This document shows positions 33,961-38,608 of a stretch of DNA of 64,000 bases, piece after piece. Position 1 is the first letter of the stretch. Each line of letters opens with the position of its first letter. The position numbers were made by a program, and so were the translations under genes. The stretch lies in contig NZ_FPBL01000001.1 of the NCBI RefSeq assembly GCF_900116685.1, positions 186,001-250,000 on the forward strand. Direction: 5' to 3'. The notes below the pieces were generated by a model that was not told the DNA's origin, searched no databases, and saw nothing but the letters and a program-made list of their open reading frames with translations. This stretch comes from Nitrosomonas eutropha (GTDB taxonomy: Bacteria; Pseudomonadota; Gammaproteobacteria; Burkholderiales; Nitrosomonadaceae).

Positions 33961-34734
33961 ATGGGTTATTCCATCAGCAAACCGGCCTGGACTCTGGCCG
34001 GAATCATGGCTCTTTCTTTGACATTGGGCGGTTGTGCTGCGGTTCATACATCCATTGCAAAAAAGGATCTGGATGTGCAAACCAAGATGAGCGACACTAT
34101 TTTTCTGGATCCGATCGAGCCAGGACAAAAAGTTGTCTACTTGAACATTCGCAATACTTCTGACAAAACCAATTTCGATATTGCTCCATCTGTTATCAAT
34201 TCATTACAAAGCAAAGGTTACCGTATTACAGAAAACCCGAAAGCGGCGCATTACTGGCTGCAAGTCAACGTGCTGAGCGTTGAGAAAGCCAGCCCGACTG
34301 CGGCTGAAGCCGCACTGAAAGCCGGCTACGGCGGGCTGGGTGGTGCGGCACTGGGTGCAGCAGCAGGTGCGGCAACTGGCGCAGCTATTAGTGGCTGGGG
34401 TGGTGCCGGGATTGGTGGGCTCGCCGGGGCTGCGGCATTTGGCCTGGTGGATACCATCGCCGGGGCTGCAGTAAAAGACGTTACCTTTATGGCCATCACC
34501 GATGTTGAGATCGCTGAGCGCGCTGAAGATGGCGTCATCGTGCGCGAAGATCGTCAGCAGGATCTAAAACAGGGGGTTGGGGGTTCCAAAAGACAGACTT
34601 CTTCCAAAGTCAGCGAAATGAACAAATATCGCACCCGCGTCGTCAGCATCGCTAATAAAGCTAATCTTGAATATGAAGAAGCTGCGCCTGAGTTAACGAA
34701 TGGTCTGGCACGCACTATTTCCGGATTATTCTGA
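33961..34734 (+). CDS. TraT-family outer membrane lipoprotein
   Basis: 257 aa. Lipoprotein signal LTLGGC with Cys near 26. The TraT pattern is clear: AVHTSIAKKDLDVQTKMSDTIFLDP, VYLNIRNTSDK, and a Gly/Ala-rich membrane-like stretch (about 120-165). The AGGAGATGAA ribosome site supports the ATG at 33961. TraT of F plasmid gives surface exclusion and serum resistance. Here it is chromosomal, with no tra genes around, so an envelope role separate from conjugation is likely. Confidence 0.9.
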   Translation: MGYSISKPAWTLAGIMALSLTLGGCAAVHTSIAKKDLDVQTKMSDTIFLDPIEPGQKVVYLNIRNTSDKTNFDIAPSVINSLQSKGYRITENPKAAHYWLQVNVLSVEKASPTAAEAALKAGYGGLGGAALGAAAGAATGAAISGWGGAGIGGLAGAAAFGLVDTIAGAAVKDVTFMAITDVEIAERAEDGVIVREDRQQDLKQGVGGSKRQTSSKVSEMNKYRTRVVSIANKANLEYEEAAPELTNGLARTISGLF

Positions 34735-35267: not shown

Positions 35268-35915
35268 TTACTCGGTAACATCCCCGTAATACTTCTCTCC
35301 AATCCGAATCCGTTCCCTGCCGTTTTTTTCTCGCCAATTATTGGTATCGCGCAGTGAATAAGCACAGCCACAGTATTCCTGCATGTAAAATTTCTCCCGT
35401 TTACTGATTTCCAGCATGCGTGCGGAACCCCCTTGCTTGCGCCAGTTATAGGTCCAGTAGGTAACCCCGGGGTACTGCGCGGCGGCCCTTACGCCGCTGT
35501 CGTTAATCTGTTCCATATTCTTCCAGCGCGAAATACCCAGTGAACTGGAAATAACATCAAATCCGTTTTCATAGGCATACAGTGCTGTGCGTACAAACCG
35601 CATGTCAAAACACATAGTGCAGCGGACGCCCCGCTCCGGCTCCATTTCCATGCCTTTTGCCCGCTTGAACCACTCATCCCGGTCATAATCAGCATCGATA
35701 AACGGGATGCTATGTTCTTCCGCAAAACGGATATTCTCATCCTTGCGTAAATCGTATTCTTTGCGTGGATGGATGTTTGGATTGTAAAAAAAGATAGAGA
35801 AATCAATCCCAGAAGCCATGATTGCCTCCATTACCTCGCCTGAACAAGGTGCACAGCAGGAATGCAGCAGCAATTTTTTACCGTTTTCCGGCAGTTCCAG
35901 TTTTCCACGTTCCAT
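35268..35915 (-). CDS. queH: Epoxyqueuosine reductase QueH
   Basis: 215 aa of the DUF208/QueH family, which reduces epoxyqueuosine to queuosine in tRNA independently of cobalamin. Cysteine motifs expected for the Fe-S and metal site are visible: HSCCAPC (Cys20, 21, 24), RCTMCFDMR and EYCGCAYS. It replaces the cobalamin-dependent QueG. The gene stands alone and is convergent with the Spy-like gene. Confidence 0.92.
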
Positions 35916-36083: not shown

Positions 36084-37367
36084 ATGTTTACTTCTTTAAG
36101 GTTAATCAATTTCAAAGCCTGGGAAGACACCGGGACGATCGCACTAAAACCGGTGACTGTACTACTGGGCACCAATTCATCCGGAAAATCTTCGCTGATT
36201 CAAAGTCTGCTGCTATTGAAGCAAACGATACAATCCCCGGATCGCTCGGTTCACCTCAACCTGGGAGGTGATGAAACCAGCGATTTGTTTAACTTTGGCA
36301 GCTTCGATGATGTATTGAAACGTGGCACGCAATCTCCACGCGAATTTTCAATTACATTTGCTTTTGAGACACATGAACAGTCGCGGGTAAACGAGGGGCG
36401 ATTTTCCTGCAGCTATCGGCAAACTGCAGCAGGCGCCGCCGCCATTCAAGAGCTGGCACTCTCCACCGGTGCGCACCGTTTTCGTGCAGTACGGAGGGAA
36501 AAAGAAAACTATGCCATTTTTATTGCAGATGAAACCCGAGCATGCGCTAAAGACAGGAATTTCGCCCCTGAACGCTCTATTGCACTTCCTGCCGAGGCGA
36601 TCGCCACACTGGGCAGCAATGGCGCTATTGCTGAAGATCTGAGCCTTGTCATCCGGCGTGAGCTGGAAAATATTTGTTATCTGGGTCCACTACGGCGTAA
36701 ACCAGAACGCGATTACGTCTGGAACAAAACAACGCCCGGCCAAATTGAAAGTGACGGCCATCGCACTATCGATGTCCTGCTGTCCGGCACACTGAGCAAG
36801 GATGGCAAACACAATGAAATTCTGGATGGGATTTCTTACTGGCTGGCCCGAATGAAAGTAGCAGAAAAACTGGCCATCAAACAGCTAGGTCGTTCTTCCC
36901 GTTACGAAATTGTAGTGCATAAGGATGGCATTGCCGCTAATCTGCGCGATGTCGGCATTGGTATCCCACTGATCCTCCCTGTGCTGACCGCAGGCTATTT
37001 TGCGCCTTCAGGCAGCACCGTGATCCTGGAAGAACCTGAAATCCATCTGCACCCATTGGCACAATCCGTACTGGCAGAATTCTTTGTAGCGCTGAGCCGG
37101 TCACGCCATATTCAATTTATCGTGGAAACACACTCGGAACATCTGTTTCGCCGAATGCAAACGCTGATTGCACGGAAAGAAACATCAGCAGAACAGATTG
37201 CCATGTTGTTTGTGGAAAGAGTGGCAGATAACGCAATATTACGAAAATTGAAAGTTGATGAATTTGGCCGGGTAAATAACTGGCCACAACACTTCTTTGG
37301 CGATGCACTGGGCGAAACACGCGAACAGGCCCGATTAATGCTTGCCCGCCAGCAGGAGCAAAATTAA
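36084..37367 (+). CDS. AAA ATPase of the SMC/OLD-like (DUF3696-type) group
   Basis: 427 aa. N-terminal RecF/OLD-like pattern with Walker A LLGTNSSGKSSLIQSL (Gly29 to Ser37). The C-terminal half carries VGIGIPLILPVL, Walker B VILEEPEIHLHP (about 313-324) and a switch histidine in FIVETHSEHLFRR. These overcoming-lysogenization-type ATPases form dimers over DNA or RNA ends and are common sensors in phage-defence modules. Here no fused TOPRIM nuclease is present; the nuclease seems to be the next gene. A four-base spacing and an internal AGGAG link it to that PIN-like gene. Ribosome site AGGAAAT precedes the ATG. Confidence 0.85.
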   Translation: MFTSLRLINFKAWEDTGTIALKPVTVLLGTNSSGKSSLIQSLLLLKQTIQSPDRSVHLNLGGDETSDLFNFGSFDDVLKRGTQSPREFSITFAFETHEQSRVNEGRFSCSYRQTAAGAAAIQELALSTGAHRFRAVRREKENYAIFIADETRACAKDRNFAPERSIALPAEAIATLGSNGAIAEDLSLVIRRELENICYLGPLRRKPERDYVWNKTTPGQIESDGHRTIDVLLSGTLSKDGKHNEILDGISYWLARMKVAEKLAIKQLGRSSRYEIVVHKDGIAANLRDVGIGIPLILPVLTAGYFAPSGSTVILEEPEIHLHPLAQSVLAEFFVALSRSRHIQFIVETHSEHLFRRMQTLIARKETSAEQIAMLFVERVADNAILRKLKVDEFGRVNNWPQHFFGDALGETREQARLMLARQQEQN

Positions 37368-37370
37368 TCA

Positions 37371-37901
37371 ATGAAGCAGCGTTATGTGGTTGATACCAAT
37401 ATATTGATCCTTGCCAGTGTGGTGAATCCTGTTATGCCGAAAGATATCGATACGACACCGGAAGATCCCGCACTGCGGTTCCGGGTATGGCAATGGCTGG
37501 TTGAATTTGAAAACAGCCCGGCGAGACTGGTGCTGGATTCAGCCGGAAAGATCAAGGAGGAATATGACAACAAGCTCGGATTCAACGATTACGGGATTCA
37601 GGTTGTCATCCATAAATGGAGCACACTGGCCGTGGATAATGTGGATATTCAATATGATGCTGACGGCCATGCCATATTGCAACCACCACTGGACTCAGTG
37701 GTACACGACCTGGCTGATCGAAAAATGGTCGCCGCCGCACTGGAAGCCATGAAGCACTATGGAGAAAGCGCTATCGCCTTCGCCGGTGATACCGACTGGC
37801 ATGACTGGGAACATGCGTTGATACGTGCTGGTCTGTCACTGGAACCCATTATTGAAGACTGGTCTCGCGCCAAACACACGGAAAAGGCAAACAGGAGATA
37901 A
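37371..37901 (+). CDS. PIN-like nuclease domain protein
   Basis: 176 aa. Pattern YVVDTNILIL with Asp8, then HDLADRKMVAAALEA with Asp113/Asp116 and AGDTDWHDWE with Asp140/Asp142 gives the acidic residues of a PIN-domain RNase active site. It has an extra insert (about 20-60) compared with VapC. It starts 3 bp after the ATPase and ends 2 bp before the RNA ligase, so all three are surely one transcript. Not a classical toxin-antitoxin pair: no small antitoxin precedes it. Confidence 0.75.
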   Translation: MKQRYVVDTNILILASVVNPVMPKDIDTTPEDPALRFRVWQWLVEFENSPARLVLDSAGKIKEEYDNKLGFNDYGIQVVIHKWSTLAVDNVDIQYDADGHAILQPPLDSVVHDLADRKMVAAALEAMKHYGESAIAFAGDTDWHDWEHALIRAGLSLEPIIEDWSRAKHTEKANRR

Positions 37902-37903
37902 CC

Positions 37904-38608
37904 ATGACCGAATTCTTCCGTTTCCCTAATACCCCTCACCTGCTCTGGCTGGGGAAAGGCCAACCAAGGGATGACAAACTATTATCCGATTCCGAAGTTG
38001 CCATGCTGCTACAGGATGAGGTGCTGATTGAGGAAAAATTGGATGGCGCCAATCTGGGTATTTCTCTGGATGAGCGTGGCAAACTGCGCGCGCAGAACCG
38101 TGGTCAGTATCTGCCACAACCTTTCGCTGGCCAGTTTTCTCGTCTGAACAGCTGGCTTGGTCAGCATGGAGAAGTCCTTAAACAAACTCTGACACCGGAA
38201 CTGATCCTGTTTGGGGAATGGTGTGCAGCCCGGCATTCACTCGATTACAACAAGCTACCGGACTGGTTCCTGCTGTTTGATGTTTATGATCGAGAAGCAG
38301 GCAAATTCTGGAGCGTTGAACGACGTAATCAGTTGGCCCGGCAATTAAATTTCACCACGGTACCACTGCTAAAAAGTGCGAGGGTAACGCAAGATCAGCT
38401 GATTCAATTGCTGGAGAATGCAGAAAGCCGCTACCGCAGCGGTAAGGTTGAAGGTATTGTTATCCGCTGTGATTCGCCGCTCTGGTGCAAAAACCGGGCC
38501 AAGCTGGTTAATCGGGAATTTGTCCAGGCAATCGAAGATCACTGGCGCAGCCGGGCAATTGAATGGAATCTAGTGAATGCCAGATCAGCAAAATATACTA
38601 CATCATGA
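37904..38608 (+). CDS. ATP-dependent RNA ligase family protein
   Basis: 234 aa with all motifs of the covalent nucleotidyltransferase fold: motif I EEKLDGAN with Lys45 as the AMP acceptor, GEWCAARHSLDY (motif III region), FLLFDVYD (IIIa), KVEGIVIR (IV) and KNRAKLVN (V). It would reseal RNA or nicked RNA 3'-OH/5'-P ends. AGGAGA lies 12 bases before its ATG. Coupled to a PIN-like nuclease and an ATPase, it may repair what the nuclease cuts, or the nuclease may be controlled by the repair state. Activity inferred from motifs only. Confidence 0.85.
   Translation: MTEFFRFPNTPHLLWLGKGQPRDDKLLSDSEVAMLLQDEVLIEEKLDGANLGISLDERGKLRAQNRGQYLPQPFAGQFSRLNSWLGQHGEVLKQTLTPELILFGEWCAARHSLDYNKLPDWFLLFDVYDREAGKFWSVERRNQLARQLNFTTVPLLKSARVTQDQLIQLLENAESRYRSGKVEGIVIRCDSPLWCKNRAKLVNREFVQAIEDHWRSRAIEWNLVNARSAKYTTS

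Follow-up and report, generated by a model that had tools for sequence, protein, structure and literature searches.

Three adjoining genes and the question they raise

Why should one operon encode both a protein predicted to cut RNA and an enzyme predicted to join it? The question is posed by three adjoining genes in a 64,000-nucleotide stretch of Nitrosomonas eutropha DNA (the window; G000:C12:186001–250000 of a 2.34-Mb assembly, with positions below in window numbering), which encode an ATPase, a PIN-fold protein and an RNA ligase. We tentatively read this trio, with a confidence just short of even, as a putative mobile anti-phage module in which an ATPase–PIN pair of the type catalogued in PADLOC as HEC-03 carries its own RNA ligase. 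This reading rests on observed gene content, folds, active sites, linkage, mobile copies, defence neighbours and the exchange of an ATPase tail together with the PIN; what we infer is the cue, the target RNA, control of the PIN by the ATPase, and resealing of PIN-made cuts by the ligase.

A first-pass annotation made from the DNA letters had reported three intact genes with gaps of 3 and 2 bp, and the list of open reading frames bears this out, with all three on the + strand. The first gene (36084..37367, +) encodes a 427-amino-acid ATPase, for which the role of sensor and PIN controller is proposed. It had been called OLD/SMC-like; it is indeed an ATPase with a conserved Walker A motif, but the label was loose, as Pfam places it among AAA_15/AAA_21 ATPases carrying DUF3696 (PF13175, PF13304 and PF12476). 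Its best PADLOC model is HEC-03B (5.5e-87), followed by Menshen NsnB (5.8e-60) and PDC-M55A, and then by PARIS AriA (4e-25). Within the Walker A region (residues 29–36; 36168..36191, +), G29, N31, S32, G34 and K35 are present in 81/81 aligned ATPases and S36 in 79/81, and in the Walker-B-like region (residues 316–319; 37029..37040, +) E316 and E319 are found in all 81. Residue 317 (37032–37034), beside E316, is Glu in 62/81 and Gln in 19/81, a split in the alignment that may mark subtypes differing in ATP hydrolysis. The PF12476 match defines a DUF3696 tail (residues 369–415; 37188..37328, +), proposed as the PIN-docking part.

The second gene (37371..37901, +) encodes a protein of 176 amino acids, the proposed RNA-cutting effector. 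No Pfam family (threshold 0.1) and no NCBIfam family matched it, and its sole PADLOC match is a weak one to HEC-03A (2.6e-5, 22.4 bits, residues 34–161). Its AlphaFold2 model is confident (predicted local distance difference test, pLDDT, 92.4) and has a VapC-like fold; a Foldseek search with this model returned nothing at E <= 0.001. The acidic residues D8 (37392..37394), E64 (37560–37562) and D116 (37716–37718), all on the + strand, are kept in 105/105 alignment rows and D140 (37788–37790, +) in 104/105, and by analogy with PIN enzymes we take these four to be the catalytic set. Judged by model and alignment, the second gene product is a PIN-fold nuclease with conserved acidic residues and predicted catalysis, in agreement with the PIN-like protein and acidic site first reported. 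Identity as a HARP-like RNase P was considered and tentatively set aside: no HARP family matched in Pfam (threshold 0.1) or NCBIfam, and the fold of the PIN matches HARP less well than VapC.

The third gene (37904..38608, +) encodes a short ATP-dependent RNA ligase of 234 amino acids, the proposed resealer, which matches PF09414 at 5.6e-37 (127.9 bits; cut-off 27) and no PADLOC model. Residues K45, D47, G48, N50, E105, E183 and K200 are kept in 94/94 rows, so that the ligase with Lys45 of the first-pass annotation stands; by analogy with the family, this motif I lysine (38036..38038, +) is presumably the one adenylated. The structural model (pLDDT 89.6) comprises a nucleotidyltransferase domain with a poorly modelled end, and the nearest solved structures are Rnl3 (2vug, 3.3e-8), a Naegleria RNA ligase and T4 Rnl2. 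The C-terminal domain of these relatives, Rnl2 and Rnl3 among them, is absent from the window ligase, the matched full-length chains having 317–380 residues, and the ligase may therefore depend on a partner to bind RNA.

Linkage of the three genes across genomes

Do the three genes belong together outside Nitrosomonas? A protein search with the PIN gave 629 relatives (E <= 0.001), and a species-genome scan with the PIN alignment gave 83, from which 80 loci were kept. The full trio, in the order ATPase–PIN–ligase, occurs in 60/80 loci (L031 and L078 have an interrupted ATPase), and the ligase lies directly downstream of the PIN in 74/80, so the linkage first noted in one genome extends beyond close relatives. 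The remaining arrangements are PIN–ligase without a detected ATPase (14/80; L080 at a contig edge, L057 with an interrupted ligase), ATPase–PIN without the usual ligase (4/80; L007, L026, L029 and L047) and PIN alone (2/80; L046 and L052, both at contig starts, the latter with a broken frame). Because the ligase directly follows the PIN in so many loci, ATPase-less ones included, a PIN–ligase partnership is indicated.

Three of the four loci lacking the usual ligase have a different PF09414 ligase (about 25% identity) next to the pair, located upstream and on the opposite strand in L026 (L026:5870-6529) and L029 (L029:5863-6549), and downstream in L047 (L047:8723-9382). The L026 and L047 proteins are 67% identical; each is the only PF09414 match in its genome, and that of L029 is one of five. 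Absence of the ligase from some pairs could suggest that it is a functionless passenger in the module. We regard this as very improbable, given its place behind the PIN in 74/80 loci, its presence with several PIN subtypes and in several phyla, and its active-site residues, which are unchanged in all 94 rows.

At the family level, the PIN was found in 13/125 genomes and the ligase in 20/125, including those 13. Six of the seven genomes with a ligase and no PIN match (L106–L111) contain a trio whose PIN is divergent (the ATPase is split in L111); the seventh locus, L112, where the ligase is a fragment with a stop, yielded no hit. In a class-level sample, 7/274 genomes had a ligase match, the window's own included, and the other six loci comprise two trios (L150, L151), two loci without a detected PIN (L152, L153) and two weak matches.

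L036 and seven Burkholderiales loci (L064–L067, L070, L074 and L076) have a gene for a sigma-54 activator immediately before the ATPase, with a partial relative in L079; the Burkholderiales loci count among the ordinary settings of the trio. The three activators scanned by Pfam (L036, L064 and L066) have GAF domains, and PADLOC 'RtcR' matches on the activators span the AAA part, not the CARF part. Sigma-54 control of the trio was rejected as a candidate: a -24/-12-like pattern occurs near only 1/92 ATPase starts, and L036 and the seven Burkholderiales loci showed no sigma-54 promoter pattern before the ATPase.

Exchange of the ATPase tail together with the PIN

What would connect the ATPase to the nuclease? 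Pairwise distances were compared over 71 full trios, with the ATPase tail taken as the part after residue 353. Tail and PIN distances correlate most strongly (0.906), a value owed in part to physical linkage because the two are adjacent DNA, followed by core and tail (0.781) and core and PIN (0.772). The ligase is equally close to the PIN on its other side, yet it does not track the PIN (0.523).

A natural replacement illustrates the coupling. L012 (Nitrosospira multiformis) and L109 (G105, same family) lie in collinear surrounding DNA of 82–93% identity, and their ligases are 78.4% identical; the distance between the two loci is 0.11 for the ATPase core, 0.59 for the tail and 0.81 for the PIN (25.8% pairwise identity). 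Between L012:6679-9226 and L109:3860-6462, the tail and PIN of another subtype have thus been swapped jointly, while ATPase core and ligase stay. The reverse pattern is also seen, in that L012, L013, L014, L024 and L028 combine a window-like tail and PIN with a distant ATPase core. We read these comparisons as suggesting that the tail pairs with the PIN, that the core varies with the cue and that one ligase may serve several PINs.

The low ligase–PIN correlation bears on an alternative in which the ATPase–PIN pair is anti-phage and the ligase is aimed elsewhere, repairing RNA damage inflicted by phages or by further host systems that cut RNA, and co-travelling since both serve in infection. 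Service of one ligase to several PIN subtypes agrees with this, as do the two-gene pairs without a ligase and the ligase relatives that stand alone in viral contigs (L115, below). The position of the ligase right behind the PIN in 74/80 loci, even ATPase-less ones, argues for a closer bond, and we consider the alternative unlikely.

Relation to the catalogued candidate HEC-03

Has such a module been described? The first-pass annotation knew no named system and thought the operon possibly undescribed, a claim that is not supported in this wording: because the ATPase and, in the window weakly, the PIN match PADLOC HEC-03 models, the pair is an already catalogued candidate, and the ligase alone is without a model. 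Among relatives, 6/7 other PINs match HEC-03A (8.4e-12 to 2.3e-30; L075 gave no match) and 3/3 other ATPases match HEC-03B (5.2e-92 to 7e-138). HEC stands for Hma-embedded candidate, and some of these candidates, HEC-06 being named, had antiviral activity (PMC12988326). HEC-03 is also mentioned in a rumen survey (PMC13356809). No paper on the ATPase–PIN–RNA ligase trio was among the matches listed in the open-licence literature. A HEC-03A search of a phylum sample of 398 genomes gave a match in 14.

Mobile copies and genomic setting

Is the trio carried by mobile elements? Twelve plasmid records contain PINs of other subtypes, six of them predicted to be conjugative. Of five plasmids opened, four (from Aeromonas, Azotobacter, Tistrella and Rhodococcus, the last an actinomycetotal genus) encode ATPase–PIN–ligase, with ligases 45–63% identical to the window or subtype-2 ligase. 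On an Acinetobacter soli plasmid (L187:3627-6284), an HNH endonuclease gene takes the ligase position behind an ATPase (annotated as two coding sequences) and a PIN. An IMG/VR search with the ligase alignment returned 34 relatives, and among the best 15 examined the trio is present in three (L114, L116 and L117) and a ligase without a detected PIN in 12 (L113 being at a contig edge). L117 has the order integrase–ATPase–PIN–ligase–psu in a P4-like element, the layout described for the P4 satellite defence hotspot (PMC9122126); in L116 an integrase precedes the trio, and in L114 AbiJ adjoins it, with a phage portal gene near. The PIN subtype of the window itself had no match in plasmids, annotated phages or IMG/VR (two other subtypes matched plasmids), and no DNA match was found in E. 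coli.

An 80,642-bp IMG/VR contig carries a stand-alone ligase (L115:4998-5663), 48% identical to that of the window, among small genes; no PIN or ATPase was detected near it within the 10.6 kb fetched. This protein is possibly a phage repair enzyme directed against such systems.

Defence-type genes, among them DISARM-like, Argonaute and restriction genes, adjoin several relatives. DrmMI or type IIG methyltransferase models match beside the trio in L012, L022, L024, L025 and L049, Argonaute in L013, a type I specificity gene in L050, a type I specificity gene with YhcG in L038, and GmrSD and HNH in L109; because the proteins scanned were chosen, these counts are not a rate. When 87 neighbours were scanned in bulk, none of the PADLOC families hit more than four of them at 1e-20. 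A defence-type or accessory setting, foreseen in the first-pass annotation, is supported for part of the relatives through plasmids, a satellite and defence neighbours, but not for the window copy, which is not in a defence island. In the 105-row PIN tree, near-identical PINs occur in different families (L013, Pigmentiphaga; L014, Comamonas), and the tree extends to other phyla, mostly through metagenome-assembled genomes in which contamination is possible. The PIN is the most variable of the parts compared (mean distance 0.57, against 0.44 for the ligase).

Proposed working of the module

How might the parts act together? In the mechanism that we propose, the ATPase core would sense a presumed phage cue, and its C-terminal DUF3696 tail would hold or switch the PIN. 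On the cue, the PIN would cut an essential cellular RNA, presumably and most likely tRNA, and phage growth would stop. The ligase would reseal the cut RNA, whether to clear up background cleavage in healthy cells or to let the cell recover. The regulated, reversible RNA-damage switch suggested in the first-pass annotation is a fair inference on these grounds; what was observed there is confirmed, and its interpretation is partly supported.

The chemistry of the ends is central to this proposal. The general view is that metal-dependent PIN nucleases leave a 5'-phosphate; with such products direct resealing would fit, and the absence of a kinase from the operon would be explained. Ligases of the window kind join a 5'-phosphate to a 3'-OH; the ends made by PrrC are the reverse of these, which is why T4 requires Pnkp (PMC3400036). 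As to targets, those of VapC toxins are the anticodon loops of tRNA or 23S rRNA (PMC5408214), and VapC52 is reported to protect a mycobacterium against phage (PMC13273310).

A fuller version, in which a sensor ATPase with an exchangeable tail governs a tail-paired PIN and the ligase reseals the PIN's products, giving self-reversing immunity with arrest followed by recovery, and in which some phages answer with a stand-alone ligase such as that of L115, is conceivable but doubtful. Defences that cut RNA are commonly seen as arresting growth in one direction only, the repair being left to the phage, as in T4 versus PrrC. If the proposal is true, a widespread module that includes a resealing enzyme would imply that hosts make the weapon itself reversible; candidate HEC-03 would gain a nuclease fold, a probable class of substrate and a principle of control; and the tail–PIN exchange would amount to an experiment of nature on the way in which ATPases of this type hold their effectors.

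Evidence against the proposed module and alternative explanations

Besides the physical linkage that contributes to the tail–PIN correlation, several observations weigh against the anti-phage module with its own ligase. The ligase is beside the PIN in 10/14 HEC-03A loci of the phylum sample and absent from L156, L157, L165 and L168 (about 1.5 kb fetched on each side); when the four genomes were searched whole, three had no PF09414 match and one had a match on a different contig, and the genome of L007 has zero PF09414 matches. Because pairs occur in genomes without any PF09414 match, the ligase is not essential to the ATPase–PIN pair. Because the two best HEC-03A matches (L156 and L157) are without a ligase, plain HEC-03 looks like a two-gene system and the window like a ligase-bearing variant; we file the trio, on gene content and profile matches, as a putative variant of this kind. 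The same HEC-03A genome search missed the window's own PIN.

These ligase-less genomes also bear on a toxin–antitoxin explanation, in which the PIN is a toxin, the ligase is an antidote that reverses its cutting and addiction maintains the unit. The VapC-like fold and the two-gene PIN–ligase form (14/80 loci, with L080 at a contig edge) are in its favour. ATPase–PIN pairs exist in genomes without a PF09414 ligase (G410, G732, G465 and that of L007), so a cell can tolerate the PIN without a ligase, and the large ATPase is left unexplained. Plain toxin–antitoxin function was lowered since both two-gene forms, ATPase–PIN and PIN–ligase, occur, and we hold it to be quite unlikely.

Turning to genomic setting, the immediate neighbours of the window trio are ordinary (QueH and DUF202 by Pfam) and form no defence island, the trio occupies one shared site in seven Nitrosomonas genomes, and 9/20 hand-picked neighbours of relatives gave no match at the thresholds used. 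No empty site was demonstrable among L147–L149, because the flanks shared with the window amount to nil (L148), 123 bp (L147), or 118 bp plus a 1,441-bp catalase-gene stretch (L149). PIN–ligase pairs without an ATPase are found in 13 gammaproteobacterial loci (L039, L042–L045, L048, L051, L053–L057 and L059), 10 of which form one clade of the PIN tree; an HrpB helicase gene adjoins L044 and a YicC gene L053, and others have genes of like size and place. A pirin gene is near the pair in L043.

Such chromosomal arrangements would suit an RNA-processing or stress-repair unit, in which a specific cellular RNA is cut by the PIN and joined or circularised by the ligase under an ATPase regulator, as proposed for HARP and Rnl3, which co-occur and are often neighbours (PMC12153264). 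The single Nitrosomonas site with its ordinary neighbours, and the ATPase-less pairs, several beside hrpB and yicC, agree with it. Against it stand the patchy distribution (the PIN in 13/125 family genomes), the plasmid, satellite and prophage-like copies with defence-type neighbours, and the variability of the PIN, which exceeds that of the ligase (0.57 versus 0.44); we judge this explanation improbable.

Finally, VapC products have been described with 5'-OH ends (PMC6459853). Were the window PIN to leave such ends, a ligase of the window kind could not join them without a kinase.

Surroundings of the window trio

The QueH gene (tRNA queuosine; 35268–35915, -) lies divergent to the trio, both in the window and, judged by nucleotide collinearity, in close Nitrosomonas relatives, an adjacency that is probably due to chance. 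A gene for a TraT-family lipoprotein (PF05818, 5.9e-76) lies near the trio at 33961–34734 (+). Promoter and terminator prediction found 4 and 3, respectively, compared with 3.5 and 3.2 in shuffles.

Comparison with known systems

Which known systems does the trio resemble? VapBC shares the PIN fold and its acidic residues; no VapB-like gene adjoins the window PIN, which is flanked by the ATPase and the ligase. PrrC with T4 Pnkp and Rnl1 likewise combines RNA cutting and repair around phage infection (PMC3400036), but there host and phage hold opposite halves, whereas the window has cutter and ligase in one operon and, unlike Pnkp–Rnl1, no kinase or phosphatase gene. HARP with Rnl3 offers another PIN-superfamily nuclease near an ATP-dependent RNA ligase (often adjacent; PMC12153264), Rnl3 being the nearest solved ligase.

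Menshen is similar through its NsnB model, which matches the window ATPase at 5.8e-60; the window PIN and ligase match no Menshen model. HEC-03 has the same ATPase–PIN pair in the same gene order, and differs in that the ligase is in no PADLOC model and the window PIN is only a weak HEC-03A match. PARIS, to which the ATPase is related by the AriA model (4e-25), likewise sets an AAA_15/AAA_21 ATPase beside a nuclease. Its AriB is a TOPRIM nuclease that cuts tRNA (PMC12409363); no TOPRIM effector is encoded by the window trio, whose second gene product is PIN-fold and matches no AriB model, and the ligase is a feature of the window. The putative module most likely works like PARIS, with a PIN replacing the TOPRIM nuclease and with a built-in resealer.

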